From NCBI GenBank assembly GCA_900142905.1, contig FSRV01000001.1, positions 1,178,001 to 1,242,000 on the forward strand: a stretch of 64,000 nt of DNA, written 5' to 3'. The translations under genes were made by a program, and so were the position numbers. The DNA is from Burkholderia sp. GAS332. GTDB lineage: Bacteria; Pseudomonadota; Gammaproteobacteria; Burkholderiales; Burkholderiaceae. The notes under the pieces are model-generated. The model made no database searches. It was given only the letters and a program-made list of their open reading frames with translations, and had not been told where the DNA came from. This document shows, piece after piece, positions 10,425-23,975 of this stretch (positions within the stretch are counted from its first letter, which is position 1; every line of letters begins with the position of its first letter).

Positions 10425-12032
10425 TCATTTGTGCGGCGCCTCGTCGGCGGCGAACGCTTCAATCGCCGCCTTCTCGTCGGCCGCACTCAGTTCCCGCAGT
10501 CCGTGGTGGCCCATCAGCCGGTACAGCGTCACGCGCGAGATGTTGAGATCCACCGCCGCCTCATTCAGCCGATGGCGGTGCCGCAGCAGCGCCGCTTCGA
10601 TCGCGCGCTTCTCGGCGGCTTCGCGCGCTTGCGAGAGCGTCACGGTCTGTTGTGCGGTGAACTGCGCGAGATCGAGGTCGTCGGCGGAAATCAGCTTGTT
10701 TTCCGCCATCACGATCGCGCGGCGTACCCGGTTGATCAGCTCGCGCACATTGCCAGGCCAGTTGTAGTTGTGCAGCGCTTCGATCGCCGACGGCGTGAAG
10801 CCGCGGATCTTGCGTGCGCTATCGGTCTTGAACTTGTGCAGGATGTGATGCGCGATGATTTCAATATCTTTGCCGCGCGCCCGCAACGGCGGTTCGTCCA
10901 CCCGCAGCACGCACAGGCGGTGAAACAGGTCGGCACGGAACTGTCCTTCGCGCATCGCGCCTTCAAGGTCGACGTGGGTCGCCGAAATGATCCGCACGTC
11001 GACCGGAATCGATTCGTGGCCGCCCAGGCGCTCGATCTTGCCTTCCTGCAGAAAGCGCAGCAGGCTCGCCTGGCTTTCGAGTGGCAGATCGCCGATTTCG
11101 TCGAGCAGCAGTGTGCCGCCATCGGCGGCTTCGACCCGGCCGATCTTGCGCTGATTCGCGCCGGTGAACGCGCCGCGCTCGTAGCCGAATAGTTCGGACT
11201 GCAACAGATGATGCGGAATCGCGCCGCAATTGATCGCGATGAACGGCGCCTTGCGGCGCGGCGAGCGTTCGTGAATCGCGAGCGCCGTGAGTTCCTTGCC
11301 GGTACCCGACTCGCCGGAGATGAACACGCTCACGTCGGTGTTCGCCACCTTGCGGATGGTGCGAAACAGTTGCTGCATCGCGTCGCAGGTACCGACCATT
11401 TCGTCGTCATCGTCGGCGGCGGGCGCGGCCGGCGGGATCTCATCGGCATCGCACAACGCCACCATGCCGAATGCGTGACTGGCGAGGTAGTCGATCGTGG
11501 CGTTGGCGACGGGTGTCTTGACGTAGTCGAAGCAGTAGTGGCGAATCAGGCGCCGCACGTCGGGGTCGGTGAGGCGTTCCGGCGTAGCGAGCGCAATCCA
11601 GCCGATCTGCTGTTGACGCAGGCTCGCTTCGAGGCCGCCCAGGTCGCGCAACGCAAAGCTGGCCAGGTCGACGATGCCGGTGCATATCACGTCAGGTTTG
11701 AGTAGGCGCGCGAGCTCATGCGCCGAGCGGGCGACCATCACGTGCCAGCTGCGGCTCTTCAGATGGGCGGTCAGCGTCTCGTCCGGCGTGCGCGCGACAT
11801 ACAACAACGTGCGTTCGGCCTGCGCTTGCGGCAGAGCGGTCTCTTTCGCGGCGGCGGAGGGTTTGTGCAAGCGCCCCACCGCGGCCTCCTGAGGGCGCAC
11901 CAAAGAGACTTCCGACGGACGCCCCCCGAGGACTTCCGTTACTCGTGTCACCGGTGCTTCCGGCGCTCGGGCAATTGACAGATGAGCGCCGGAGGGCGGT
12001 GTAACGCTGCTCAGATGGGGTGATTCGCGCAC
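10425..12032 (-). CDS. Sigma-54-dependent activator with VpsR-like architecture (regulator 1 of the fap-like cluster)
   Basis: An enhancer-binding protein of about 535 residues. After a Pro/Ala-rich N-terminal extension of about 70 residues comes a receiver-like domain (acidic residue in GIVDLASF). The AAA+ domain has Walker A GESGTGKE (about residue 240), the sigma-54 contact motif GAFTGA (about 288) and Walker B GGTLLLDE. A Fis-type HTH (NEAAVDLNISRVTLYRLM) ends the protein. GTG 12032, six bases after GAGG, is a better start than TTG 12038. It follows the fapF-like gene by 24 bases, so it is probably the last gene of the operon it controls. Its AAA+ domain is nearly identical to that of the gene at 18918. 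Confidence 0.88.
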   Translation of the reverse strand: MRESPHLSSVTPPSGAHLSIARAPEAPVTRVTEVLGGRPSEVSLVRPQEAAVGRLHKPSAAAKETALPQAQAERTLLYVARTPDETLTAHLKSRSWHVMVARSAHELARLLKPDVICTGIVDLASFALRDLGGLEASLRQQQIGWIALATPERLTDPDVRRLIRHYCFDYVKTPVANATIDYLASHAFGMVALCDADEIPPAAPAADDDDEMVGTCDAMQQLFRTIRKVANTDVSVFISGESGTGKELTALAIHERSPRRKAPFIAINCGAIPHHLLQSELFGYERGAFTGANQRKIGRVEAADGGTLLLDEIGDLPLESQASLLRFLQEGKIERLGGHESIPVDVRIISATHVDLEGAMREGQFRADLFHRLCVLRVDEPPLRARGKDIEIIAHHILHKFKTDSARKIRGFTPSAIEALHNYNWPGNVRELINRVRRAIVMAENKLISADDLDLAQFTAQQTVTLSQAREAAEKRAIEAALLRHRHRLNEAAVDLNISRVTLYRLMGHHGLRELSAADEKAAIEAFAADEAPHK

Positions 12033-12056
12033 GATCAACCTCGTATCGTTGGCACG

Positions 12057-13490
12057 TCAAAAAGTGTAGGGAAAGCGCACGCCGATCACGAAGTTCGGCG
12101 TGTCGGGCGTGAGGCCGACAGACACCGAACCGTTGATCGTCAAGTGCTTGTTCACTACATGATTCAAGCCGAAGGTCAGTGCGGCAGCGGTGGTCTCGCT
12201 GCCTGGCACCTTCGAATAGGTTCCGCCTGGCGCCTTGGTCTGCGACTCGGGCTCCAGCGCCATGGTGTACGAAATGCTGGCGGAGTCCTTGTCCGAGAAC
12301 GCCAGCGCCACGCCGCCGCCGAACTGCACCACGTCGCCGATCTTGACCGTCGCCGGTTCGGTCTGGCCGATGACCGACGAGATGTCCGAGAACGAGCGCG
12401 CGATGTTGTAGGTGTACGAAACGCTGCCGAACAGCACGACCGGATCGTAGGTCTTCAACACCGACAGACCTGCCGTGATGTTCCAGAAGCCGGTGCCGGT
12501 GGGCAGCTTGGTGGGGGCGACGAGGTTGGTGTTGTCGGCATCGACCTGCTGCAGCTTGATGCCGAACGGCGACGAACCGGTCGGCGCCTTGACGCGCAGG
12601 CTGCCGACCAGGTCCGGCAGGCTGTTGGTTTCCTTCAGGATCTCGTAGTAGAGCCCGAAGTTGACGTCACCAATGTCGCTCGAATTTGCCGAGGCGTCCG
12701 AGACCGTATTCGCGGCCCCGCCGGCCCCGCCGACGATGAAGTTGCTGTGCCGGTAGATATAGGGCACGTCGACGTCGACGCTGATGCGGTCGGTCAGACC
12801 GTAGCGCGTGTCGAGGTCGGCCATCACCTGGTGCGATTTGGTTTCGCCGAGGTTAATGTTGCCGAGGAAAATCGCGTCGAGCGCGAGGAAGCCGGACAGT
12901 TGCAACTGGCGGCGGTCATAGTAGGTATCGCTGATGCCCCAGTCCATGGTCAGCTTGTGCTCGAACAGCGGCGTGTGCTGCTGGTTCTGCACCACCGCGT
13001 CTTCCGATTGCGTGCGTACTGGTTGCGCGGCCTTCTGTGTCTGGCCGACCGCGCCGGTGCCGTCGGTCGCTGCCGGCAGGCCGCCCCCACCGCTGTTATC
13101 CGGCACCGGCGGATTGACCGGCACGCCGGTCGCGGTGCCCGTGCCGCTGCCCGGCGCACCCGGGTTCACCTGGGCCAACGGCGGCAGCGGCACAGGCAGG
13201 CCGTCCGCGCCAGGTTGCTCGGCGACTGTGGCGTCGCCGGTCGGCTCGCCGTAACCCGGCGCGCCGCGGCCGCGCTGCTCCATTTCGAGGTTCGTGACCT
13301 GCCGCTCGAGCGAGATGATCTGCTTTTGCTGCTCGCTGACGACGCGCATGAGCGTGTTCAGCCGGTCTTCAACCGATTGATCGGCGAGCGCCTGCGCGCT
13401 GGCCCCCTGCGATAGCGCAAACAGCATGACTGCGGCCGGAATGGCCGCTAACGCCATGCGTGGCGTACCGGTCTTTGAGAATCTGATCAT
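12057..13490 (-). CDS. FapF-like outer-membrane amyloid exporter (coiled coil plus beta-barrel)
   Basis: A 477-residue exported protein. The signal peptide is residues 1-33 or so (cleavage near ASAQA). A heptad-rich coiled coil follows at about 38-73 (DRLNTLMRVVSEQQKQIISL), then a Pro/Gly-rich linker to about 165, then alternating amphipathic strands to a C-terminal aromatic (VRFPYTF), typical of an outer-membrane barrel. A trimerising coiled coil ahead of a barrel is the known layout of FapF, the pore that secretes Fap amyloid subunits in Pseudomonas. Assigned from architecture and neighbours (protease, repeat subunits), not from clear sequence identity; a generic OmpP1/transporter-like protein is the alternative. 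Confidence 0.68.
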   Translation of the reverse strand: MIRFSKTGTPRMALAAIPAAVMLFALSQGASAQALADQSVEDRLNTLMRVVSEQQKQIISLERQVTNLEMEQRGRGAPGYGEPTGDATVAEQPGADGLPVPLPPLAQVNPGAPGSGTGTATGVPVNPPVPDNSGGGGLPAATDGTGAVGQTQKAAQPVRTQSEDAVVQNQQHTPLFEHKLTMDWGISDTYYDRRQLQLSGFLALDAIFLGNINLGETKSHQVMADLDTRYGLTDRISVDVDVPYIYRHSNFIVGGAGGAANTVSDASANSSDIGDVNFGLYYEILKETNSLPDLVGSLRVKAPTGSSPFGIKLQQVDADNTNLVAPTKLPTGTGFWNITAGLSVLKTYDPVVLFGSVSYTYNIARSFSDISSVIGQTEPATVKIGDVVQFGGGVALAFSDKDSASISYTMALEPESQTKAPGGTYSKVPGSETTAAALTFGLNHVVNKHLTINGSVSVGLTPDTPNFVIGVRFPYTF

Positions 13491-13600
13491 TTTTGTTCCC
13501 CCGGTATTCTGACTGCGCGTCGCATGTCTCCTTGCATCGCGCGGCCACTTTGATACTGCTTTGGTACTTGGTCTCGGTCCTGATCGGGTGGCGGCCCGTG

Positions 13601-14401
13601 TTATCTCCTTACGGTGTTTTGCAGGGCTTGCAGGACGCCTATCTGGCGCAGCATCGAAGCCGACATCTGCTGCGTCTGCAGATGCAGTTGCAACTGGTTG
13701 GCGACTTGCTGGTTATTGCCTGCGATCTGCAAGAGTTGGGCAATCATGCCGGCCTGTTGCGCACTGCTTGGCGTGATCGTTTGGGTGGCGAGCCCGGCCG
13801 GCGTTTGCAGCGCAATCGAAATGCCCCCGTTGGCGAAACTGACGGAGGCGGTCACCGAGCCGTTCGCATTGCTTGCGGCAGCCGACGTTGCGTTGTTATA
13901 GGTGCCTCCCGTCAGGCTGCCTGGTGAGGCGTCGAAATCGATCAGCGCCTGGTTGGTGCCGAGGTTGCCGTTGCCGGCCACCTGGGTGATCTGCGAGACG
14001 CCGTTGACGTTGACGTTCTGGCCGCCGTTCGCGCTGGCGTTGCGGTTGGCGCCGCTGCCCGAGGGTCCGTTCGGGCTGGTCACCAAGGCCGATGAGCTGA
14101 CCTGCACGCTCGGCTGGTTGAGCGCGTTGGTGACGATGGAGAGCGCGCCCGAGGCGACGGCGGTGGCGCCGTTCGGCAGTTGCCATTGCGACAGCAGATT
14201 GATGACGACGCCAGAAATGATGTCCCCGACAATCCCTTTGCCGGTCTGGTTGGCGAGGACGGTGTCGTCGACGGGTTGCAGCTTGAGGGCGCCGACGTCT
14301 TCAAACACAGTCGGCGCCTGCTCGGCAGCATGCGCGACTGATGCAAGGCCGCACGTTGTGAAGCACAACGCACAGCCAATGGTGAGTAAGTTTCGGTCCA
14401 T
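13601..14401 (-). CDS. Exported accessory protein of the fap-like operon (FapE position)
   Basis: A 266-residue secreted protein with a signal peptide to about residue 26 (cleavage VAHA-AEQ). It has a motif VDDTVLANQTGKGI after the N terminus, a Gly/Asn/Ser/Ala-rich middle, one repeat-like stretch (VSQITQVAGNGNLGTNQALI) reminiscent of the amyloid repeats, and a Gln-rich C terminus (NQLQLHLQTQQM). It begins 6 bases after the FapD-like gene stop, hence tight coupling. Position and composition fit FapE, a minor fibre component, but I cannot claim homology from sequence alone. Confidence 0.6.
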   Translation of the reverse strand: MDRNLLTIGCALCFTTCGLASVAHAAEQAPTVFEDVGALKLQPVDDTVLANQTGKGIVGDIISGVVINLLSQWQLPNGATAVASGALSIVTNALNQPSVQVSSSALVTSPNGPSGSGANRNASANGGQNVNVNGVSQITQVAGNGNLGTNQALIDFDASPGSLTGGTYNNATSAAASNANGSVTASVSFANGGISIALQTPAGLATQTITPSSAQQAGMIAQLLQIAGNNQQVANQLQLHLQTQQMSASMLRQIGVLQALQNTVRR

Positions 14402-14407
14402 GATGAG

Positions 14408-15118
14408 TCAGAACAACTCTGCCTTTATCAAACCGTATTCAACAAAGGGAGTCGCGGCCGTACCGTTTTCCAGCGCACGTTCGCGCAGCTTGAGCGCGAG
14501 CGACTCATTGCCTTGCAAGAGCGGAGAATCCTCCTTGAATGGCTTGCCGACGACCGCGAACACGAGGCCGTTCCACTTCTTGACGAAGTCGTCTTCCATG
14601 ACGATGCGGTTACCGAGGGCGGGGTCGGCAATGAAGATGCGGCCGTCTTCCGCGTGTTTGACGATCACGAAGTGCTCGTAGCCGTCGCTGTTCATCAGCA
14701 CGAGCACGGGAATCTGCAGGTGATAAAGCGCTTCGGCGTTGACGCGAAACCCTCGGCCGCGCAGGCCGATCGTTTCGACGAACTTCTTCATGTCGAGCAT
14801 CGAGAAGCCGTTCTTGACCACCACCTCGGGTGTCGAAAACACCATCATGCGGCGGATCATTTCGGTTTCGGGAATGTCGATGCCGTAGCCGTACTTCAGC
14901 AACGTGGCCAGAGCGGCCGAGCCGCAGCTGTAGTCGTAACGCTGCGAAACGATGTGGTTGTAGCGCAGCTCGCGGATCGACCGCACGTTCATGTTGAACG
15001 GCACGCCCGCTGCGGCGTTCATGGAAAGGGCACTCTGCGCATGACCCGTCTGCGAAAGCACGAGTCCAGCGAAGAGTGCCGCAAAAAAGCCATGCGATAC
15101 CCTGCTCACCCCGAACAT
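14408..15118 (-). CDS. C39-like cysteine peptidase of the fap-like operon (FapD-like)
   Basis: A 236-residue exported papain-fold peptidase. Signal peptide to about residue 27. The catalytic triad is visible: Cys65 in YDYSCGSAALATLL, His149 in GYEHFVIV and Asp165 in FIADPALGN. Unlike ABC-transporter C39 domains it stands alone and is directed to the periplasm, which is the known situation of FapD in the Pseudomonas functional-amyloid operon. It lies between the repeat-protein gene and the FapE-position gene, preceded by a strong hairpin (15139-15172) and a G-rich ribosome site. A role in processing or chaperoning subunits is inferred. Confidence 0.8.
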   Translation of the reverse strand: MFGVSRVSHGFFAALFAGLVLSQTGHAQSALSMNAAAGVPFNMNVRSIRELRYNHIVSQRYDYSCGSAALATLLKYGYGIDIPETEMIRRMMVFSTPEVVVKNGFSMLDMKKFVETIGLRGRGFRVNAEALYHLQIPVLVLMNSDGYEHFVIVKHAEDGRIFIADPALGNRIVMEDDFVKKWNGLVFAVVGKPFKEDSPLLQGNESLALKLRERALENGTAATPFVEYGLIKAELF

Positions 15119-15138
15119 GGTCTATCCCCCCCAGGGGA

Positions 15139-15172
15139 GACAACCGGTCAGCACGAAGGCTGACCGGTTGTC
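15139..15172 (-). promoter_or_regulatory. Intercistronic 14-bp perfect hairpin between the fapC-like and fapD-like genes
   Basis: GACAACCGGTCAGC / GCTGACCGGTTGTC with a 6-nt loop containing TTCG on the transcribed strand. No T run follows, so it is not a classical terminator. It could protect the upstream subunit mRNA or lower downstream expression. Confidence 0.75.
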
Positions 15173-15213
15173 TTCCTGCTATACAGCTTTAGCTGCTGAT
15201 TACCGACTACTGA

Positions 15214-16602
15214 TTACTGATGCGACACGCTGGCGACTGCAAGGCCATTGTGTTGCAGGTTGCCTACACCCGACGCGATATTCACACCGATGTTGCCGTC
15301 AGCGTGATTGAGCGCACCTGCACCGAGCATCGCCGAGCCGGTGAACTCACCCGTGACGCCTGCGGCAGCGGTCTGACAGTTCTGGTCGCTGGCGATGACT
15401 TCGCCACCTTGCATGCTGTCACGCCCCCTGCCTGCGGTGCTGCTGTCGGTCGTAGCCGACGCTGCCAGGCTGTTGTTTTGCACGTTGCCCGCACCCGAGG
15501 CCACGTTCACGCCGATATTGCCCGTGGCATTGGCCAGCGCGTTTGCGCCAACGGAAGCCACGAAGTTGAAGTCACCCACTTTCGCCGAGCCGCTCGACGC
15601 CTGGGTCGAGTAGATCTGCGCGGAGCCGAACACGGGGCCCACATCCATGTTCGACAGGGCGGCGTCATTTGACTGGGCGTTGTTGACGCCGCTGGAGATG
15701 TTGACGCCAATGTTGCCGCTTGCGGTATCCAGCGCGTCCTTGCCGACGCCGGCCGACATCGTCGTCGCCTTTTCGGTGTCGATGTGCTGGGTGACGCTGC
15801 CCGTGACGGTGATGGAGCCCTTGTTGTCATCGTAGTTATTGGCCCAGCCGTAGGCGTGGCTGCCTTCCGAGTAGCTTGCGCTGACCTTGCCACCATAGCC
15901 GCTGCGGGTTTCCGTCGCCGTGCTCTGGCTAGCTGCCGCGTAGCCGCCGTATGCCACGCCGTAGCCGGCCGCCTGCGCTTCAAGCCCGGCGCCGAAGTTG
16001 CTCGACTCGTGGGTGTTCAGCGCGCCAGCGAAGCCTGCTGCAACGCCGCCGAAGAGCACGCCGGGGCCGCCGCCGAGACCGGCGATAAAGCCCGCTGCGA
16101 GGAAGCCGTTCGCGGAGGCGTGCGTGTTCGAATAGTTGTAGCCCTTGACCGAGCCTTCGAGGCCGGCCGCGAAGCCGCCGCCCGCGATAAACGCGGCGCT
16201 CGACGAGGCCGAGTTGGTTTGCGTGTTGCTCTTGTCGTAGGCCCAGGCGCTATTGCTATACGACTGGCTCACGCCCCAGCTGCCGCCGCTACCGCTCGCA
16301 TGGTTCCAGCTATCCGTTGTGTTGATTTTGGTGGTCACGTTGCCGGAGGTGTAGCTCTGCGGAGGCGTCTTCATGTCGACGCCGGCGACGCTCACGTTTT
16401 GCGTGTTGTTGACCGTGGCGCCGGAGCTGCTCGACACGTTGACCCCGCCACGCAGCGTGATGAAGCCGAATTCGCCGATGTCGGTATAGATGTTGGTTGC
16501 CGTAAAGAGCTCAGCCGGGTCGCAGCCTGCCGTGCATTCGGCGTAAGCGGAACTTACTGCCATCGTCGACAGGACAGCCGCTGCAATGATAGTGCGCTTC
16601 AT
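15214..16602 (-). CDS. Large repeat-containing secreted protein, probable functional-amyloid subunit (FapC-like)
   Basis: A 462-residue protein with a signal peptide (cleavage near SAYA-EC) and a CTAGC pair just after it. The middle is Gly/Ala/Ser/Tyr-rich and low in charge (residues 100-250). The C-terminal half has three imperfect repeats at about 284-317, 350-383 and 425-458, each with an AL..A.GNIGVN(I/V).SG.(G/N)N.Q.N core, separated by variable linkers. This repeat-linker plan and the GNIGVN core match what is known of FapB/FapC amyloid subunits. GGAGCG precedes ATG 16602. The largest secreted product of the operon, so probably the major subunit; amyloid formation itself is inferred. 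Confidence 0.72.
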   Translation of the reverse strand: MKRTIIAAAVLSTMAVSSAYAECTAGCDPAELFTATNIYTDIGEFGFITLRGGVNVSSSSGATVNNTQNVSVAGVDMKTPPQSYTSGNVTTKINTTDSWNHASGSGGSWGVSQSYSNSAWAYDKSNTQTNSASSSAAFIAGGGFAAGLEGSVKGYNYSNTHASANGFLAAGFIAGLGGGPGVLFGGVAAGFAGALNTHESSNFGAGLEAQAAGYGVAYGGYAAASQSTATETRSGYGGKVSASYSEGSHAYGWANNYDDNKGSITVTGSVTQHIDTEKATTMSAGVGKDALDTASGNIGVNISSGVNNAQSNDAALSNMDVGPVFGSAQIYSTQASSGSAKVGDFNFVASVGANALANATGNIGVNVASGAGNVQNNSLAASATTDSSTAGRGRDSMQGGEVIASDQNCQTAAAGVTGEFTGSAMLGAGALNHADGNIGVNIASGVGNLQHNGLAVASVSHQ

Positions 16603-16631
16603 GATGACGCTCCGATAAAGAGTGTGGCTGG

Positions 16632-17282
16632 TTAGAAAAAGGTGCCCGCCGGGGGACGGAGCACAAAACTGTTTGAACTGACGTTACCTGAGCCGGCAGT
16701 CTGGTTGATCTGGACGATCCCACTGACGTTTTTGAGCGCGTCCGCACCGATGGACACCTCGCGTGCGTCGTGGTTATCGCCAGACTTTCCCTGACTGCCG
16801 ACTTTGGCGGTCGTAGCGGATAGCACCCCATCCGCTACGATCTCCGCTTCAACCGGTCCAGAACCAATTACGGCGCTGTTCCGCTGAAGATTCCCTACAC
16901 CCGCCGACTGATTCACTTCGATAAGGCCAGAGGTGTTTGAAAATGCGTTATTGCTGATCGTGCTTTTCGCGGCCGTCGTCCTTGCGTTCGTGGACGCGCT
17001 CTGCGAGCTGCCGATCAGATTGAGAGGGACTTGCCCGTTGGTGAGCACGCCCTGGTTTGCTTGCACGTTGTCGAGCCCTGCTGCCTCGTTGATGGCGACC
17101 ACGCCAGTCGCACCGTTAGCTACGCCGTTGCCGATCACCGACTGCACGTCGACGAGCGCGGACGGCGTTTGAGCGTGCGCCGCAACGCTCGCAAGGCTGA
17201 GGAGCGCACAGACCATCAGGGGCCAGCGCGGTTGCTTGCGGGACGGGAGGCGCTGCGCTGCCGGTGCGTGTGTTGTCTTCAT
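16632..17282 (-). CDS. Smaller repeat protein, probable amyloid nucleator or minor subunit (FapB-like)
   Basis: A 216-residue exported protein; the signal peptide ends near residue 37 (AHA-QTP). Three repeats of about 31 residues at 51-81, 110-140 and 178-208 share the pattern SG.(I/V).(I/V)N(Q/E).AG..N.Q.N, more degenerate than in the larger neighbour. ATG 17282 overlaps the previous gene's stop by four bases (ATGA), indicating coupled translation; the upstream in-frame stretch is the preceding gene in another frame. By analogy with Fap, where FapB is the nucleator, this is the likely minor subunit; that role is inference. Confidence 0.65.
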   Translation of the reverse strand: MKTTHAPAAQRLPSRKQPRWPLMVCALLSLASVAAHAQTPSALVDVQSVIGNGVANGATGVVAINEAAGLDNVQANQGVLTNGQVPLNLIGSSQSASTNARTTAAKSTISNNAFSNTSGLIEVNQSAGVGNLQRNSAVIGSGPVEAEIVADGVLSATTAKVGSQGKSGDNHDAREVSIGADALKNVSGIVQINQTAGSGNVSSNSFVLRPPAGTFF

Positions 17283-17767
17283 TTCATGGCTCCTAAAGCA
17301 GCGCCGAGGGGGGCGAGGGCACCGTTGACCGACTGGGCGATCGAGCTGCCGATTCCGCCGGCGCCGCCGAAGCTGGCGCCCGCGCCAACCGGAACGGAGT
17401 TGCCGTTGCCCGCGAGCATGTGCTGGATGCCGTTGGTGCCGACCAGCGCCGGCATAAAGCCGTTGCCGGTAATGCCGCTGGTACCGTGCGCGCTGTTCAG
17501 ATCGAGATCGCTGGCGGTCGAGCCGAGCGCGCCGTCGAAGGCCGCGGTCGGAAAGGTTTGGACCTGCACGGCAATCGGGTCCTGGTTCTTCGGCACCGGG
17601 ACGAACGCATCGCGTGGCGTGATGTCCCGCTCGATGATCAGGTTGCCCGGCGCGGTCGACTGCGCCGCCGCGCCCGTCACGGCGCCGGCAGCGAGCACGC
17701 CGAGCAGCGTGCACAGCAGGGCTGCGCTGGGGCTGCGGCTGCTCGGCTTCTGGGTTGAGGCGTTCAT
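17279..17767 (-). CDS. Small exported protein of unknown function in the fap-like operon
   Basis: A 162-residue protein with a long hydrophobic signal peptide (residues 18-40, LLCTLLGVLAAGAV) cleaved near AAAQS. The mature part begins with a polar segment (NLIIERDITPRDAFVPVPKN) and ends in a Gly/Ala/Ser-rich region (GAGASFGGAGGIGSS). I recognise no domain. It could occupy the FapA position (a chaperone-like regulator of FapC export in Pseudomonas), but no similarity is visible. ATG 17767 begins the signal peptide; the stop overlaps the next gene. Confidence 0.6.
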   Translation of the reverse strand: MNASTQKPSSRSPSAALLCTLLGVLAAGAVTGAAAQSTAPGNLIIERDITPRDAFVPVPKNQDPIAVQVQTFPTAAFDGALGSTASDLDLNSAHGTSGITGNGFMPALVGTNGIQHMLAGNGNSVPVGAGASFGGAGGIGSSIAQSVNGALAPLGAALGAMK

Positions 17768-17829
17768 GTCAGTTCCTTGCGGGCAGACGATCGGTCGGTG
17801 CGGTGTGGGGCAGCGAGCGGGTCGTGGTG

Positions 17830-18381
17830 CTAATTTCTTTGGTAGCTCGTGACGTTGCCTTGTGCGGAGCGGGCGACGTCGACGGGAACCGGCAACTGCG
17901 ACGGCGGGGCGATTTCGTCCCACAGCGTCACGCCGTTGCCACTGTTGTTAAAGCCGCGCATCAGTTGCGGCGTCGCTGCGACCATCACCATGCCGCCAAA
18001 GCCGCCGCGTTGGCTGGACAGCGCCTGATCGTCCAGCACCAGGTTGTTCACCGAGGCGGCGTCGGCGGGAATGCTCAGCGCGTTGCCGGCCAGATCGCTG
18101 TGTGACGCGGCGCTGTCGTCCGTGCCGGCCACGCTGGTGTCCACCGCAGTGGCGCTCGCGGTGCCGGTGACCGCCGTGTTCCGGAACGCCACCGCTGCGA
18201 GCGTCGTGCTCGCGAGGGTGGCGGAACCGGTATCGGTGGTTTCGGACATCGCGGCGGATTGGGGCAGGGTGAATTCCTGTGCATTGACGCCAACTGGCAG
18301 CACGATCAAAGCGGCTGCGGCGGCGCATAGTGCGGTGCAAGGTGCAATGCTGCTCAGGTCGATGCGGAAAGCGAGTCGCAT
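17830..18381 (-). CDS. First gene of the fap-like operon, exported protein of unknown function
   Basis: A 183-residue protein with a signal peptide (residues 1-37; core CAAAAALIVLPVGVNA). The mature part is Ala/Thr/Ser-rich, then carries LDDQALSSQRGGFGG at about residue 120 and a hydrophobic-aromatic tail (GNGVTLWDEIAPP). The D-x-x-L...(R)G(G) motif also occurs in the FapE-position protein. ATG 18381 has a strong ribosome site AAGGAG. It lies about 28 bases downstream of the sigma-54 promoter at 18409-18424. No recognised family; possibly a minor fibre component. Confidence 0.62.
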   Translation of the reverse strand: MRLAFRIDLSSIAPCTALCAAAAALIVLPVGVNAQEFTLPQSAAMSETTDTGSATLASTTLAAVAFRNTAVTGTASATAVDTSVAGTDDSAASHSDLAGNALSIPADAASVNNLVLDDQALSSQRGGFGGMVMVAATPQLMRGFNNSGNGVTLWDEIAPPSQLPVPVDVARSAQGNVTSYQRN

Positions 18382-18408
18382 GATGTGTCTCCTTGGTGCA
18401 CAGCATTT

Positions 18409-18424
18409 AGCGAAACGTGTGCCA
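18409..18424 (-). promoter_or_regulatory. Sigma-54 (-24/-12) promoter of the fap-like operon
   Basis: The minus strand reads TGGCACACGTTTCGCT. The consensus TGGCACRNNNNTTGCW is matched except for one base in the -12 box (TCGC for TTGC), with the obligatory GG-N10-GC spacing. Start of transcription would fall near 18398, giving a 17-nt leader that includes the AAGGAG ribosome site. Confidence 0.75.
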
Positions 18425-18498
18425 TGAGTCGCAATCCATTGGTGCGTCTGGCGGCGACCCGTATGCCTCGGAGTAACAAGGGAGAAATCAGACAAAAA

Positions 18499-18516
18499 CG
18501 TTTCAACGCTGAAACG
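18499..18516. promoter_or_regulatory. Candidate enhancer (upstream activator) dyad for the fap-like operon
   Basis: Perfect 7-bp inverted repeat CGTTTCA / TGAAACG with spacer ACGC, 75-92 bases upstream of the -24 box. The size and position suit a Fis-type HTH dimer. A second, weaker repeat GCAGG / CCTGC (18517-18535) abuts it. Confidence 0.5.
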
Positions 18517-18732
18517 GCAGGCAGAAAATACCTGCAATTCGTTAAATCCGACGGTATGAACTACCTGAGGGTGAACGCTAGGAAAAGCGCTTCCACTTTG
18601 CTTTTATTCATAAGCTGAATAACTCTTGATCGGCCGCCTGGCCTTGCTGGGAAAGGGGTCTCCGATTAAATTCGCATAATTGTTTTCCAAGTGGCGCGCG
18701 TATAGTAAGCTCTCGAAAACAGCTTCAGATTT

Positions 18733-18752
18733 AAAAAAGCCCGCTAACGGGC
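18733..18752 (-). terminator. Minus-strand intrinsic terminator inside the divergent region
   Basis: On the minus strand GCCCG TTAG CGGGC is followed by six T. The stem is only 5 bp but all GC. No gene precedes it on that strand; see the finding on the structured region 18733-18880. Confidence 0.5.
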
Positions 18753-18917
18753 CGTCTCAAACACACACGCCGCTTTCTTGGGGATCAGCTGTCCGCACGG
18801 AATGGAATGGCCGTTCGGGTTTTGCTATTTCGCGAATCCCGAACGAGTCAGCGTGTCTGAACTTCGGTTCAGGTGCGTGCGTCATCCTTAACGTTCGTTG
18901 ACGAGAGGATCTGAATA
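18753..18917. other. Structured non-coding stretch upstream of regulator 2
   Basis: Contains two further inverted repeats: GTTCGGG / CCCGAAC (18813-18819 with 18838-18844) and CTGAAC-TTCG-GTTCAG (18857-18872), which on the plus strand is a 6-bp stem closed by the stable cUUCGg tetraloop. A ribosome site GAGAGGA precedes ATG 18918. No convincing sigma-70 promoter was found. Confidence 0.4.
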
Positions 18918-20312
18918 ATGGAACCCGCAACGCGGCAACTGATTTACGTTTCACGCGATCCGAGCGCGGAGCTGAACACGCGCTTCCATCAGCGCGGCTG
19001 GCATGTCGAAGTCGTGGGGTCGGCGCGCGATGTGCGCCGTGCTGTTCGCGCTGGAATGGCGGCTGGCGGCTTGCTGGATCTGTCTAGCGATTTTCAGCCA
19101 CATGAAATCGCCGCCTTCGAGTCCTGCCTGACCATGCCGAACGTCGGCTGGGTCGCGGCGACCACGCCCGGGCAATTGCAGGACGCGGCCTTGCGCCGGC
19201 TGGTACGGGACTATTGTTTCGACTATGTAACGGTGCCTTACTCGGGCGACAGGATTGTCGATTCGGTCGGTCATGCATACGGCATGATTTCGCTTGGCGA
19301 GCCGGCATCGAACGACGGTTCGCAAGGCGCTGAAGGCGAAATGGTCGGATCGTGCGACGCGATGCTCGCGCTGTTCCGTTCGATCCGCAAAGTGGCGATG
19401 ACCGACGCGCCGGTGTTCATTTCAGGGGAATCGGGCACGGGCAAGGAGTTGACCGCAGTCGCGATCCACGAACGCTCGGCGCGCCGCAATGCGCCTTTTG
19501 TGCCGATCAACTGCGGGGCGATTCCGCCGCATCTGTTGCAATCCGAACTATTTGGCTATGAGCGCGGCGCGTTCACCGGCGCCAATCAGCGCAAGATCGG
19601 CCGCGTGGAAGCGGCCAATGGCGGCACGCTGTTTCTCGACGAAATTGGCGATCTGCCGCTCGAAAGCCAGGCGAGCCTGCTGCGCTTCCTGCAGGAACGC
19701 AAAGTGGAGCGGCTGGGCGGCCACGGTTCGATCGACGTCGACGTGCGCATCATCTCGGCGACTCACGTGGATATGACGGCCGCGATGATCGAAGGGCGGT
19801 TCCGCTCTGACTTGTATCACCGCCTGTGCGTGCTGCAAATCGACGAACCCCCGTTGCGGGCACGTGGTAAGGATATCGAACTGCTTGCGCGGCACATGCT
19901 GGAACGTTTCAAGAAAGATGCAAGCCGCCGTCTGCGCGGTTTCGCGCCCGACGCCATCGCGGCGCTGCATAACTACGGCTGGCCGGGCAACGTGCGCGAA
20001 TTGATCAACCGCGTGCGGCGCGCCATCGTGATGTCGGAAGGGCGCGCGATCACAGCCCGCGATCTTGAGTTGGCCGAGTATGTGGAGATCGTGCCGGTGT
20101 CGCTCGCCCAGGCGCGCGAAGCGGCCGAACGTCAGGCAATCGAACTCGCGCTCCTGCGTCATCGCGGTCGTCTCGGCGACGCCGCCCAGGAACTCGGCAT
20201 TTCGCGCGTGACGCTGTACCGTCTGCTGTGCTCACATGGCATGCGCCATATGGAAGGCGAACCGCTGAACACGCCGCACGGCGAGTTGCCGGCCTCGGTA
20301 CCGCATCTTTGA
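18918..20312 (+). CDS. Sigma-54-dependent activator with VpsR-like architecture (regulator 2 of the fap-like cluster)
   Basis: A 464-residue enhancer-binding protein. Residues 1-125 form a receiver-like domain in which Asp54 (GGLLDLSS) sits where the phospho-acceptor normally is. Walker A GESGTGKE is at 170-177, GAFTGA at 217-222, Walker B GGTLFLDE at 235-242, and a Fis-type HTH (GDAAQELGISRVTLYRLL) is near 425-445. This order, with an atypical receiver, is that of VpsR-type biofilm regulators, some of which respond to c-di-GMP. It is divergent from the fap-like operon, with the sigma-54 promoter between them. Clearly a paralogue of the gene at 10425 but without its N-terminal extension. Confidence 0.9.
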   Translation: MEPATRQLIYVSRDPSAELNTRFHQRGWHVEVVGSARDVRRAVRAGMAAGGLLDLSSDFQPHEIAAFESCLTMPNVGWVAATTPGQLQDAALRRLVRDYCFDYVTVPYSGDRIVDSVGHAYGMISLGEPASNDGSQGAEGEMVGSCDAMLALFRSIRKVAMTDAPVFISGESGTGKELTAVAIHERSARRNAPFVPINCGAIPPHLLQSELFGYERGAFTGANQRKIGRVEAANGGTLFLDEIGDLPLESQASLLRFLQERKVERLGGHGSIDVDVRIISATHVDMTAAMIEGRFRSDLYHRLCVLQIDEPPLRARGKDIELLARHMLERFKKDASRRLRGFAPDAIAALHNYGWPGNVRELINRVRRAIVMSEGRAITARDLELAEYVEIVPVSLAQAREAAERQAIELALLRHRGRLGDAAQELGISRVTLYRLLCSHGMRHMEGEPLNTPHGELPASVPHL

Positions 20313-21584: not shown

Positions 21585-23975
21585 TTAGCCGTTGTGGTGC
21601 TCGTCACGGCCGCGGCTCGAATGCTCCTCCTTCTGCTGCGGATGCGACTCAGGGTGGGGCTGCTGCACTTGCTGCGGATGCGGCTCAGGGCGCGGCTGCT
21701 GCGCCTGTTGCGGACGCGGCTCGGGGCGTGGCTGCTGCGCCGGTTGCGGACGCGGCTCAGGACGCGGCTGCTGGGCCTGTTGCGGCTGCGGATGATATTC
21801 CTGACGCGGTTGCTGCGCCTCCTGCACCGGTTGCGGGCGGGGTTCCTGCGGCTGTGCGTGCGCCTCAGGCGCGCGCTGCGGCTGCGCTTCCGGCTGACGC
21901 TGAGCCTGTTGCTGCTCAGGACGCCCCTCCGGCTGGCGTGTCTGTTCCTGCGGGGCGCCATGTTGCTGCGCCTGCTGGGCCATCGGCGTGTGCGGCTGCG
22001 TCCATGCGGGCTCGTGACGACCTTCCGCGCCCGCTTGCTGACCGGCTTGTGCCGGCGCGCCGTGCTGCTGCGCGTAAGCATTCGGGTTGGCGCCGTTCGC
22101 TTGCGGCGGATGCGGCACGCCATTGGACGGATGAGCTGCCTCGCCGGGTTGCTGATGCTCGTTGGCCATTTGTGGCGCCATGCCCGGCCGCGCTTGCGGT
22201 TCACCGCCACGCTGCGGCTGACCGTTGCCCGGTGCTTCGCCCGGCCGCTGACCCGCCTGTTGCATGCCGTTAGGCGCACCCGGCGCTGCGCCCGGCGTCC
22301 GCCCAGCCATATGCGACTGTACGACCCGAACGTTCTGCACCGGCATGGCCGCCGGACCGCCCGCCATGTGAGCCGGCACCGAGGTGCGCACGATCGGCTC
22401 GCCCGCGCCCGGCACCCGACCGCCGTTCTGCGCAAAGCGTTGCGCGAGGCTGTCGTGGTACGCGGCCGGCACGGCCGGACTGCGCGTAGCGACGACCGAA
22501 CGCGCCATCACGGCGGCTGGCGGACGGTAGTTCGCGTTACGCAGGCCGGGCCCGAAGCTTTCCTTCACCGGCGCGATCCCCGGGCCGCCCGGATTGATCT
22601 GGGCGTTGCGCCACTGTTGCGGATCGACCTTCTGCGCGAAGCGGCCGACCGATTGGCCGTGCACGAAGGCCGTCGCCGGCACTGCGGTCACACCACCCGG
22701 TGCGCGATAGTTGATGTACGTGTTGTGAATGTTGGTCACATTCACATTCGTCACGTTGACGTTGTGGTTGTAGTTGTTGACGACAGTCGTGTTGTTGACG
22801 CGATTGTAGTAACCCGGGCTCCAGTTGTTGTGGCCACCCCAGTTCGGATGCCACGGCTCGCCCGGGCCCAGCGGGAACCACGCGACGCCGGCCGCGACCG
22901 CGCCGCCAATCGCCAGGCTCACGCCCCAGTTGACCCCGCCGCCACCGCCACCCACGAAGGCAACCAGCGCCGGCGCGTAGACGGGCGGTGCGCTGACCAC
23001 GATGGGACCCGGCACCCACGCCCACGAGTCGTCGACGTAGGCCCAGCGGCCATAGTGGTAGGGCGCGAAGCCCCACGGCGCGTCGTCGACCCAGGTCCAA
23101 CCCCAGGGCGCTTGCCATACCCAGTGCCCGTCGTGGTAAGGCGCCCAGCCGGCCGGGGTCGCGCGCGGCACCCACACTTCACCGTACTGAGGGCTGCTTT
23201 GCCACGTACCGTTCGCGTCGAGGTCTTGATAGCCGGGGATATCGCGCGACACATAGCGTGCTGACACCGAGCGGTCTTCCGCTGCGTCGCGGCTGGCCGC
23301 CCATTGATCGAAGCCGTCGAGGCCTGGCGCGCCGTTGTCGGCGACCTGTTGCAGGTTGGTGCCGGCAAAGCGGATCTGCTGGCCGGCGGCAACCGGCACC
23401 TGGCCGCTGTCGCCGTACACGGTCGCGCTGCCGCTGCGCACGGTGACGGTGGTGCTGCTGCCGTCCGGCGCGACGTCGACGCGGTAGTCGCCGGGGCCGT
23501 TCAGGCCGAGCGCCAGATTTGGCGTGTCGATTTCGTACGAGGAGCCGGGCGCCATTTCGCGCACTCGCGCGGACAACGTGCCCTGCGCGACCTTCAGTTG
23601 CGCGCTGTTGTCGTCGAGATTGAGGATGTCGAGGCTGGTGGACTGGTCAAGGCGCACCGCGGTCGACCCGATATGCAGTTCGGAGCGCGCGTTCTGATCG
23701 TTCCACAACTGATCGCCGGTCGTGAGTGGGCGATTGATCTGTGCGTACGACCAGTCAGTGGCGCCGGCCGGTTCGGTGGTCACGGCGCCGGCCGTGTAGT
23801 TCAGACGCGCGACGCGCCCTGGAGGATCGGTATTCTGCGTGGCCGCGCCCAGCGGCGCTTGTTCGGCTTCCTGTGCGAAGCTGGCTTGCGCCGCGAACAG
23901 AAACGCCGCAGCGGCGATCAGCGTGTAGCCGGTTATCCGGCGTTTCGAGTGTTGGGGTGTGGTCACTGTTCTCAT
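21585..23975 (-). CDS. FecR-domain exported protein with tryptophan-rich central region and Pro/Gln repeat tail
   Basis: A 796-residue protein. Signal peptide to about residue 34 (AQASFAQ). A FecR-like domain lies at about 55-200 (ELHIGSTAVRLDQSTSLDIL). An aromatic block at about 245-340 (GEWVPRATPAGWAPYHDGHW type, repeated W-x-W and PYHYGRW motifs) is the DUF6600 style. A Gly-rich hydrophobic stretch and an Asn/Val-rich segment (NNYNHNVNVTNVNVTN) follow. From about 540 on it is disordered Pro/Gln-rich, ending in 12-residue repeats of QPRPEPRPQQAQ type. No TonB or sigma-factor partner is nearby, so FecR here is probably a structural domain. Likely periplasmic or envelope-associated; function unknown. 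Confidence 0.8.
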   Translation of the reverse strand: MRTVTTPQHSKRRITGYTLIAAAAFLFAAQASFAQEAEQAPLGAATQNTDPPGRVARLNYTAGAVTTEPAGATDWSYAQINRPLTTGDQLWNDQNARSELHIGSTAVRLDQSTSLDILNLDDNSAQLKVAQGTLSARVREMAPGSSYEIDTPNLALGLNGPGDYRVDVAPDGSSTTVTVRSGSATVYGDSGQVPVAAGQQIRFAGTNLQQVADNGAPGLDGFDQWAASRDAAEDRSVSARYVSRDIPGYQDLDANGTWQSSPQYGEVWVPRATPAGWAPYHDGHWVWQAPWGWTWVDDAPWGFAPYHYGRWAYVDDSWAWVPGPIVVSAPPVYAPALVAFVGGGGGGVNWGVSLAIGGAVAAGVAWFPLGPGEPWHPNWGGHNNWSPGYYNRVNNTTVVNNYNHNVNVTNVNVTNIHNTYINYRAPGGVTAVPATAFVHGQSVGRFAQKVDPQQWRNAQINPGGPGIAPVKESFGPGLRNANYRPPAAVMARSVVATRSPAVPAAYHDSLAQRFAQNGGRVPGAGEPIVRTSVPAHMAGGPAAMPVQNVRVVQSHMAGRTPGAAPGAPNGMQQAGQRPGEAPGNGQPQRGGEPQARPGMAPQMANEHQQPGEAAHPSNGVPHPPQANGANPNAYAQQHGAPAQAGQQAGAEGRHEPAWTQPHTPMAQQAQQHGAPQEQTRQPEGRPEQQQAQRQPEAQPQRAPEAHAQPQEPRPQPVQEAQQPRQEYHPQPQQAQQPRPEPRPQPAQQPRPEPRPQQAQQPRPEPHPQQVQQPHPESHPQQKEEHSSRGRDEHHNG
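21629..21795 (-). repeat. 36-bp tandem repeat encoding a 12-residue Pro/Gln/Arg unit
   Basis: Anchor positions at 21648, 21684, 21720 and 21756 are exactly 36 bp apart, with flanking degenerate copies. The repeat stays in frame within the 3' end of the FecR-domain gene, so copy-number change would alter tail length only. Confidence 0.85.

Follow-up and report, generated by a model that had tools for sequence, protein, structure and literature searches.

In a 64,000-nucleotide stretch of the Burkholderia sp. GAS332 genome (GenBank assembly GCA_900142905.1, contig FSRV01000001.1, forward-strand positions 1,178,001 to 1,242,000; hereafter the window, numbered from its first letter), we identified at positions 12057-18381 a Fap-type functional-amyloid operon, fapABCDEF, that is headed by an extra gene, fapX. 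The Fap products are predicted to assemble amyloid fibres at the surface of the cell. The products FapX and FapE carry double-glycine-type leaders of the same form, and our reading, to which we assign a probability of a little under 60%, is that the exported C39-like peptidase FapD cuts both proteins at these sites. The Fap operon is of a kind already known; fapX is a new component, and with the leader the operon gains a specific, testable processing signal. The seven genes, with E-values to the NCBIfam models (NF accessions where given) and to solved structures, are as follows.

17830-18381, minus strand: fapX, 183 aa; signal peptide, variable region, double-glycine leader and VTLWDE region; conserved in relatives
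17279-17767, minus strand: fapA, 162 aa; NF058617, 2.2e-10
16632-17282, minus strand: fapB, 216 aa; NF058557, 1.4e-20; start codon overlaps the fapA stop
15214-16602, minus strand: fapC, 462 aa; NF058558, 9.1e-14; residues 279-458 align to 59-235 of 9u4u
15229-15771, minus strand: FapC region with three amyloid repeats (GNIGVN cores), from the sequence and the alignment to 9u4u/9nqd
14408-15118, minus strand: fapD, 236 aa, stand-alone exported C39 peptidase with Cys65/His149/Asp165; NCBIfam FapD, 1.1e-60
13601-14401, minus strand: fapE, 266 aa; 18/26 alignment members match NF058559, best 3.3e-14
12057-13490, minus strand: fapF, 477 aa, coil plus outer-membrane barrel; NF058560, 3.9e-101; 5o65, 4e-79 over residues 177-477

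The Fap identification is virtually certain. As a preliminary description made from the sequence had stated, seven consecutive minus-strand open reading frames (ORFs) occupy these positions, and all seven proteins begin, judged by eye, with a hydrophobic, signal-peptide-like N terminus. That description had proposed a profile search, and the NCBIfam models for FapC, FapD and FapF indeed matched, as did those for FapA and FapB; the five genes out of seven that were matched follow the order seen in Pseudomonas, A-B-C-D-F. None of the window proteins reaches its equivalog cut-off (score/cut-off in bits: FapA 41.1/110, FapB 73.7/190, FapC 51.9/195, FapD 204.7/330, FapF 338.9/700), the cut-offs being naming thresholds and not biological features. 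The GNIGVN repeat protein and the barrel predicted from the letters were both borne out: residues 279-458 of the former match solved FapC (9u4u, 9nqd), with three cores visible in the sequence, and residues 177-477 of the latter match solved FapF by sequence homology. Upstream of its residue 177, FapF has a coil-like stretch with a weak SlyX match below the cut-off. The proposed triad Cys65/His149/Asp165 is invariant in all 74 aligned FapD rows, and the FapD fold resembles PCAT1/ComA and 6mpz, a double-glycine protease with leader. The gene between fapD and fapF is identified as fapE through its relatives, 18 of 26 aligned members matching NF058559 at E-values up to 1; the window copy itself has no match to that model. 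The claim that the parts list and order are those of the Pseudomonas system therefore held for fapA to fapF and not for the seventh gene, 17830-18381, which has no counterpart in fapABCDEF. Since the gene set and order are kept in those of the named relatives (defined below) whose contigs cover them, the operon is not a chance arrangement. The identification is right yet not new, since a report of 2013 had already found such operons in Burkholderia and further proteobacteria, the B. cepacia complex being without them (PMC3792158; this and all other papers are cited here from excerpts).

A scan of genome contigs yielded 55 loci from Paraburkholderia and Trinickia, some of them deposited as Burkholderia sp. 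(the named loci). L027 and L051 (L and G numbers are our handles for loci and genomes) were dropped from the fapX counts, their contigs being too short for fapX, and fapX stood at the operon head in 53/53 named loci reaching it. The order REG2, fapX, fapA to fapF, REG1, where REG1 and REG2 are the two flanking regulator genes, is kept with exceptions: in the stretch of L052 a separate REG1 match is missing, and L054 has partial fap genes and no REG2 match at the usual place. The fapX product has no Pfam or NCBIfam match. In an alignment of 28 FapX proteins the N-terminal half is variable, residues D117, D118, L121, Q124, R125, G126, G130 and V151-E156 are invariant, and the C-terminal half contains an LDDQxLSxQRGG leader and VTLWDE. 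The two leader sites in the window are these.

18001-18036, minus strand: FapX double-glycine leader LDDQALSSQRGG, residues 116-127; strict pattern in the window and in 53/53 named FapX
14237-14272, minus strand: FapE leader-like motif VDDTVLANQTGK, residues 44-55; V44, D46, L49, Q52, G54 and K55 invariant in 26/26 rows

Position by position, both sites agree with the consensus of double-glycine leaders, which we take to be LSxxELxxIxGG, with the last glycine replaced by K or R in FapE. FapX of the window and of most named loci reads LDDQxLSxQRGG, in agreement with a leader that has L or I at -12, L at -7 and GG at -2/-1; at -1, T is found in L045 and L046, and R or T in other genera. In Burkholderiaceae, FapE reads V[DG]DxVLxxQ[TS]GK after the signal peptide, distant FapE proteins have LSDxELxxMRG[KR]-like sites, and in all 22 of the latter the leader keeps this form, with GK or GR at its end. 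FapE of Fap proper thus has GK or GR, and neither GG nor GA, at -2/-1; GG appears there in sister systems only.

The occurrence of the leader was counted with a strict pattern that was fixed after the FapX and FapE sequences had been viewed. It fits FapX in 54/54 cases (window and 53 named loci), for a shuffled expectation of 0.2-0.6%. Among 25 further FapX loci, 24 are strict and one is loose; L118, L120 and L121 repeat L046, L045 and L048, and L123 is an eroded operon, which leaves 20 strict and one loose of 21. Named FapE proteins fit in 45/54 cases, the rest being eight with Ser at -3 and one (L043) whose called ORF start lies after the motif. FapE from other families fits in 16/22, and the remaining six differ at -10 but otherwise have this site; none of this distant sample reaches the FapE cut-off and none is known as Pseudomonas, so that the FapE of the type system lies outside it. 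The strict pattern is absent from FapB (0/54), FapD and FapF (0/55 for FapF). Chance as a source of the motif was ruled out by the shuffles and by background ORFs. FapF was rejected as a carrier of the same site, its coil end reading mostly LE[RQ]QVT[NDE]LEM[AS]QRGRG, one residue out of register; in the window FapF this coil end, at residues about 60-76, reads LERQVTNLEMEQRGRG, is similar in relatives and lies near the leader motif in form.

These sites bear on a published gap. FapD is indispensable, and secretion of FapC requires the active Cys of the enzyme and is abolished by the C38A mutation; complete N-terminal processing was seen in FapE alone, with possible processing of the FapF linker (PMC5557850). 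The FapD substrate is stated as not known (PMC5557850, PMC6173800), with no canonical C39 site in the Fap proteins (PMC5557850), and a 2025 review gives the N terminus of FapE and the periplasmic region of FapF as presumed processing targets of FapD (PMC12822426). Among the papers listed for FapD/FapE cleavage, double glycine is not mentioned; the Fap secretion paper uses double-glycine once. Our comparison points to a residue-level candidate site in FapE and adds FapX, whose GG is of the textbook kind, as a further candidate. In the mechanism that we propose, VpsR-type activators and sigma-54 would switch on the operon, probably under cyclic di-GMP (c-di-GMP), and Sec would carry all seven proteins into the periplasm. 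FapD would there dock on the leader helix, L-x-D-x-x-L-x-x-x-R-G, and cut directly after it. The products would be a FapX peptide of ~56 residues (128-183, with VTLWDEIAPP) and a FapE shortened by roughly 30 residues at its mature N terminus. Export through FapF would follow for FapB, FapC and FapE, and probably for the FapX peptide, with FapC forming the fibre.

Because fapD and fapE lie in one frame, the two could be folded with AlphaFold2 as a single chain, the intervening TGA being read as Gly. The FapE motif block had a predicted local distance difference test score (pLDDT) of 85 when joined to FapD vs 51 alone, where it fell below 50 just after the motif, and the remaining FapE blocks were nearly unchanged between the two predictions. 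In the joint chain, FapE residues 46-51 were predicted to form a helix, and G54 was flanked by bridges at T53 and K55. This prediction fits docking of the leader on FapD. Docking might also be all that happens: the motif would then be a docking or targeting element for FapD or FapF that is bound and not cut, and FapD a chaperone or gate. The K or R at the P1 (last leader) position of FapE, and the R or T of many FapX proteins outside Paraburkholderia, would suit binding better than GG cleavage, and some C39-like domains only bind their substrate (PMC6173800, PMC5557850). However, we consider such a role improbable, given that the whole triad is present in 74/74 FapD rows, that the C38A mutant abolishes secretion (PMC5557850) and that a canonical RGG is kept in sister systems.

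The sister systems were studied in 20 loci (L154-L173), fetched from among 26 genomes with second-tier FapF matches (about 30% identity). A FapD-like gene (33-38% identity) is present in every one of the 20, and none has a match to the window FapB or FapC at E 1e-3. With the preset leader pattern, a matching exported neighbour on the FapD strand was found in 16/20 loci, one of them off-site. A retuned pattern, made after that result had been viewed and applied to both strands, matched in 20/20 loci with two to four matches each, 45/52 of them ending in RGG, against a background of 10/1829 comparable ORFs (ORFs were called mechanically, and export was taken as a hydrophobic stretch). Several of the sister FapF-like proteins carry the leader site in register. 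Named records with similar sites include Croceicoccus LSEEVLARQRGG, Polymorphobacter ITDYELATMRGG, Photobacterium LTDDEMSSLRGG and LTEAFMTHSRGG, and Cupriavidus metallidurans VASSKLDDVRGG, and an A. baumannii locus has MDDAALSAATGQ. Indioceanicola has a degenerate stretch only; an Acinetobacter plasmid locus fails the leader pattern and by eye holds LSRQEMKDTQGA.

The sister loci also bear on the idea that the motif derives, as a relic or a variant, from the first half of the amyloid repeat (x4-A-L-x3-T-G-N-I-G-V-N) and serves docking on the fibre and not proteolysis. The L-x4-G spacing is indeed common to the repeats, 12/54 FapC proteins match the strict pattern, and NN-x-Q-like stretches occur at the C-terminal ends of distant FapX. 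Yet FapB, with the same kind of repeat, matches in none of its 54 rows, the RGG motif is present in sister loci that lack a match to the window FapB and FapC, and an Acinetobacter locus that has a C39 peptidase carries a similar site in an exported neighbour; we regard a repeat origin as very unlikely. Cleavage by FapD at the leader would permit a wider generalization, which we advance tentatively and at slightly less than even odds: FapD and FapF would form a Sec-fed double-glycine exporter in which a C39 peptidase, working in the periplasm and not on an ABC transporter, trims FapE (in all Fap systems) and FapX, a new small LWDE peptide (in many), with FapF as the channel. One secretion class would then embrace, as its branches, Fap, Fil, Nap and the sister loci rich in glycine, and the FapD substrate would be settled. 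If this is true, outer-membrane amyloid and peptide exporters share a processing signal that could be used to find cargo in genomes. Long glycine-rich exported proteins adjoin the Burkholderiaceae sister loci L154, L155, L156 and L162.

Beyond the named loci, the FapX alignment was matched in 43 of 120 sampled family genomes and 7 of 25 genera. An operon-type FapF (>360 bits) was present in 35 genomes of this sample, and 30 of these had FapX, 29 by match and G690 (L126) by eye; FapX was not found in the other five (L127-L131). Outside the family, 21 genomes had FapE matches, 14 of which were sampled with a wide surrounding region, and 6/14 of these fap loci (L133, L134, L135, L138, L139, L142) encode a protein of FapX plan, small and exported, in which signal peptide, leader motif and LWDE follow one another. 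The extra loci L084-L093 were left out of the analysis. Second LWDE-type exported proteins are encoded at the fapF end of three loci (L094:5139-5549, L101:3050-3502, L126:10866-11291); their leader is present in L094, one residue off in L101 and absent or degenerate in L126, and these copies were dropped before counts were made.

Natural losses provided a further comparison. Thirteen family genomes have a FapX-like gene beside the regulator and lack an operon-type FapF, and their stretches are free of fap genes except for a weak FapB match in L096. LWDE is kept in 13/13 of these proteins and a sigma-54 site in 11/13 loci, and the leader motif is found in 0/13, even loosely. No stand-alone FapD relative was found in 12/13, which have none or only frames of 708-1046 aa taken for ATP-binding cassette (ABC) transporters; the thirteenth, G726, has one FapD relative (34% identity) that is part of a sister system. 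On the REG2 tree the operon label needs three changes, and motif and operon were concordant in 46/46 rows; L123 was omitted from both analyses, and L127 and L128, in which FapX was not found, from the concordance. L096 and L104 look decayed, with the LWDE ORF kept and the sigma-54 site not found. The persistence of LWDE genes beside the regulator in 13 fap-less genomes, 11 with a sigma-54 site, could mean that FapX is a sigma-54-controlled exported peptide of a VpsR-type regulon that has a job of its own, as signal or matrix factor, and is loosely tied to Fap. We find this doubtful, since fapX heads the fap operon in all 53 named loci that reach it and FapX has the protease motif only beside fapD, the eroded L123 excepted.

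Several points weigh against cleavage of FapX and FapE by FapD. No cleavage at either leader is known from the data gathered here. A single FapD would meet GG in FapX and GK in FapE in the same cell, and K, R or T at the last leader position is unusual for C39 enzymes. The main warning is that the leader pattern is not exclusive, since FapA has a similar stretch in 30/54 rows, though mass spectrometry found FapA-D unprocessed (PMC5557850), and FapC has the strict pattern in 12/54, inside amyloid repeats in the examples shown. The gap in FapE peptides, ~70 residues, exceeds the leader, and FapF is also a suspected target (PMC5557850). FapX is not essential to Fap, as follows from its presence in 30/35 family genomes and 6/14 outside loci. 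The AlphaFold2 contrast is between single runs whose alignments differed (65 and 38 rows), with no coordinates for docking. The loss contrast amounts to two supported independent pairs (three at most; p=0.5) and does not distinguish between the loss of FapD and that of the fibre. In G646 (L123), FapX keeps LDDRMLDHQRGR with only fapC and fapF remnants nearby, and this genome has no FapD orthologue, its only relative being a sister copy at 38% identity. The FapX frame of G646 has 88 codons only; the genome may be in recent decay, or may be using the sister peptidase.

Control of the operon appears to involve sigma-54, as the following features suggest.

18409-18424, minus strand: sigma-54 type -24/-12 promoter TGGCACACGTTTCGCT; begins 43 bases before the fapX start codon
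18500-18515, minus strand: palindrome GTTTCA-N4-TGAAAC, likely activator (enhancer) site; ends 75 bases upstream of the promoter element
18918-20312, plus strand: REG2, VpsR-type sigma-54 enhancer-binding protein; Pfam VpsR 1.4e-20, Sigma54_activat 5.6e-68; GAFTGA at residue 217
10425-12038, minus strand: REG1, second VpsR-type sigma-54 enhancer-binding protein, downstream of fapF; VpsR 8.2e-25, Sigma54_activat 3.9e-69; GAFTGA at residue 289

The promoter element scores at least 13/16 in 49/53 named loci and lies at -42 to -44 in 47/53. Scores of at least 14 were reached in 44/53 loci vs 15/2650 shuffled regions; since the 64 kb window as a whole has 8 sites with such scores, it is the conserved place and not the score that is the evidence. 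The palindrome has a single copy in the window, and a relaxed form is found upstream of fapX in 45/53 named loci. Both regulators have a VpsR domain, an AAA+ domain, GAFTGA and a Fis-type helix-turn-helix; REG2 is divergent from the operon and 80-100% identical in the 52/55 named loci holding it. By analogy with BerB (PMC5552954), we infer that REG1 and REG2 may bind the operon upstream region and sense c-di-GMP. BerB of Burkholderia cenocepacia is likewise a sigma-54 activator of a biofilm locus with c-di-GMP; it differs in being encoded beside the bep cluster (PMC5552954). The sigma-54 promoter and VpsR-type activators together make a testable operon switch in Paraburkholderia. The genome likely has two rpoN genes, since the sigma-54 DNA-binding family is matched twice in it, on contigs C1 and C2. 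Between REG2 and fapX, a ~90-base block (18731-18820, minus strand) is largely conserved in 18 aligned sequences and ends in a terminator-like hairpin with a T run. Rfam gave no match in 18300-19000, and a small RNA at 18731-18820 is not claimed, its fold being no better than shuffles (z 0.05).

Compared with Pseudomonas Fap, the window operon has the same six genes in the same order, the FapD triad, a 5o65-like FapF barrel and FapC repeats like those of solved FapC. It differs in having fapX, a FapC with ~220 more residues before the repeats and sub-equivalog scores, and in being flanked by two VpsR-type activators; for the Pseudomonas operon, by contrast, genes for regulatory proteins are described as absent (PMC6173800). 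The Burkholderia Fap operons of 2013 belong to the same organism family and operon type, and in the excerpts of that report we found no mention of an extra gene, a leader motif or sigma-54 control (PMC3792158). Unlike the C39 exporters PCAT1/ComA, FapD is stand-alone and Sec-exported, with no ABC transporter fusion, and its presumed substrates have Sec signals. The gonococcal nap island shares a C39 peptidase (NapP), a FapF-like channel (NapF) and peptides with a GG motif; the nap peptides, however, act in autolysis, and no Fap subunits are named in the excerpts (PMC11798529). Acinetobacter Fil (NCBIfam FilB/FilC) also combines a C39 peptidase with a FapF-like protein, but the window genes score far lower with Fil than with Fap (117.5 vs 204.7 and 74.9 vs 338.9 bits).

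Some minor observations concern FapC and the neighbourhood. The ~220 residues by which FapC exceeds the solved FapC chain before the repeats (window 15771-16602) are by eye rich in Ser, Asn and Gly, and its cysteines are at residues 23, 27 and 409 of 462. Beyond REG2, positions 21585-23975 on the minus strand encode a protein of 796 residues that has DUF6600 and a long tail rich in Pro and Gln.

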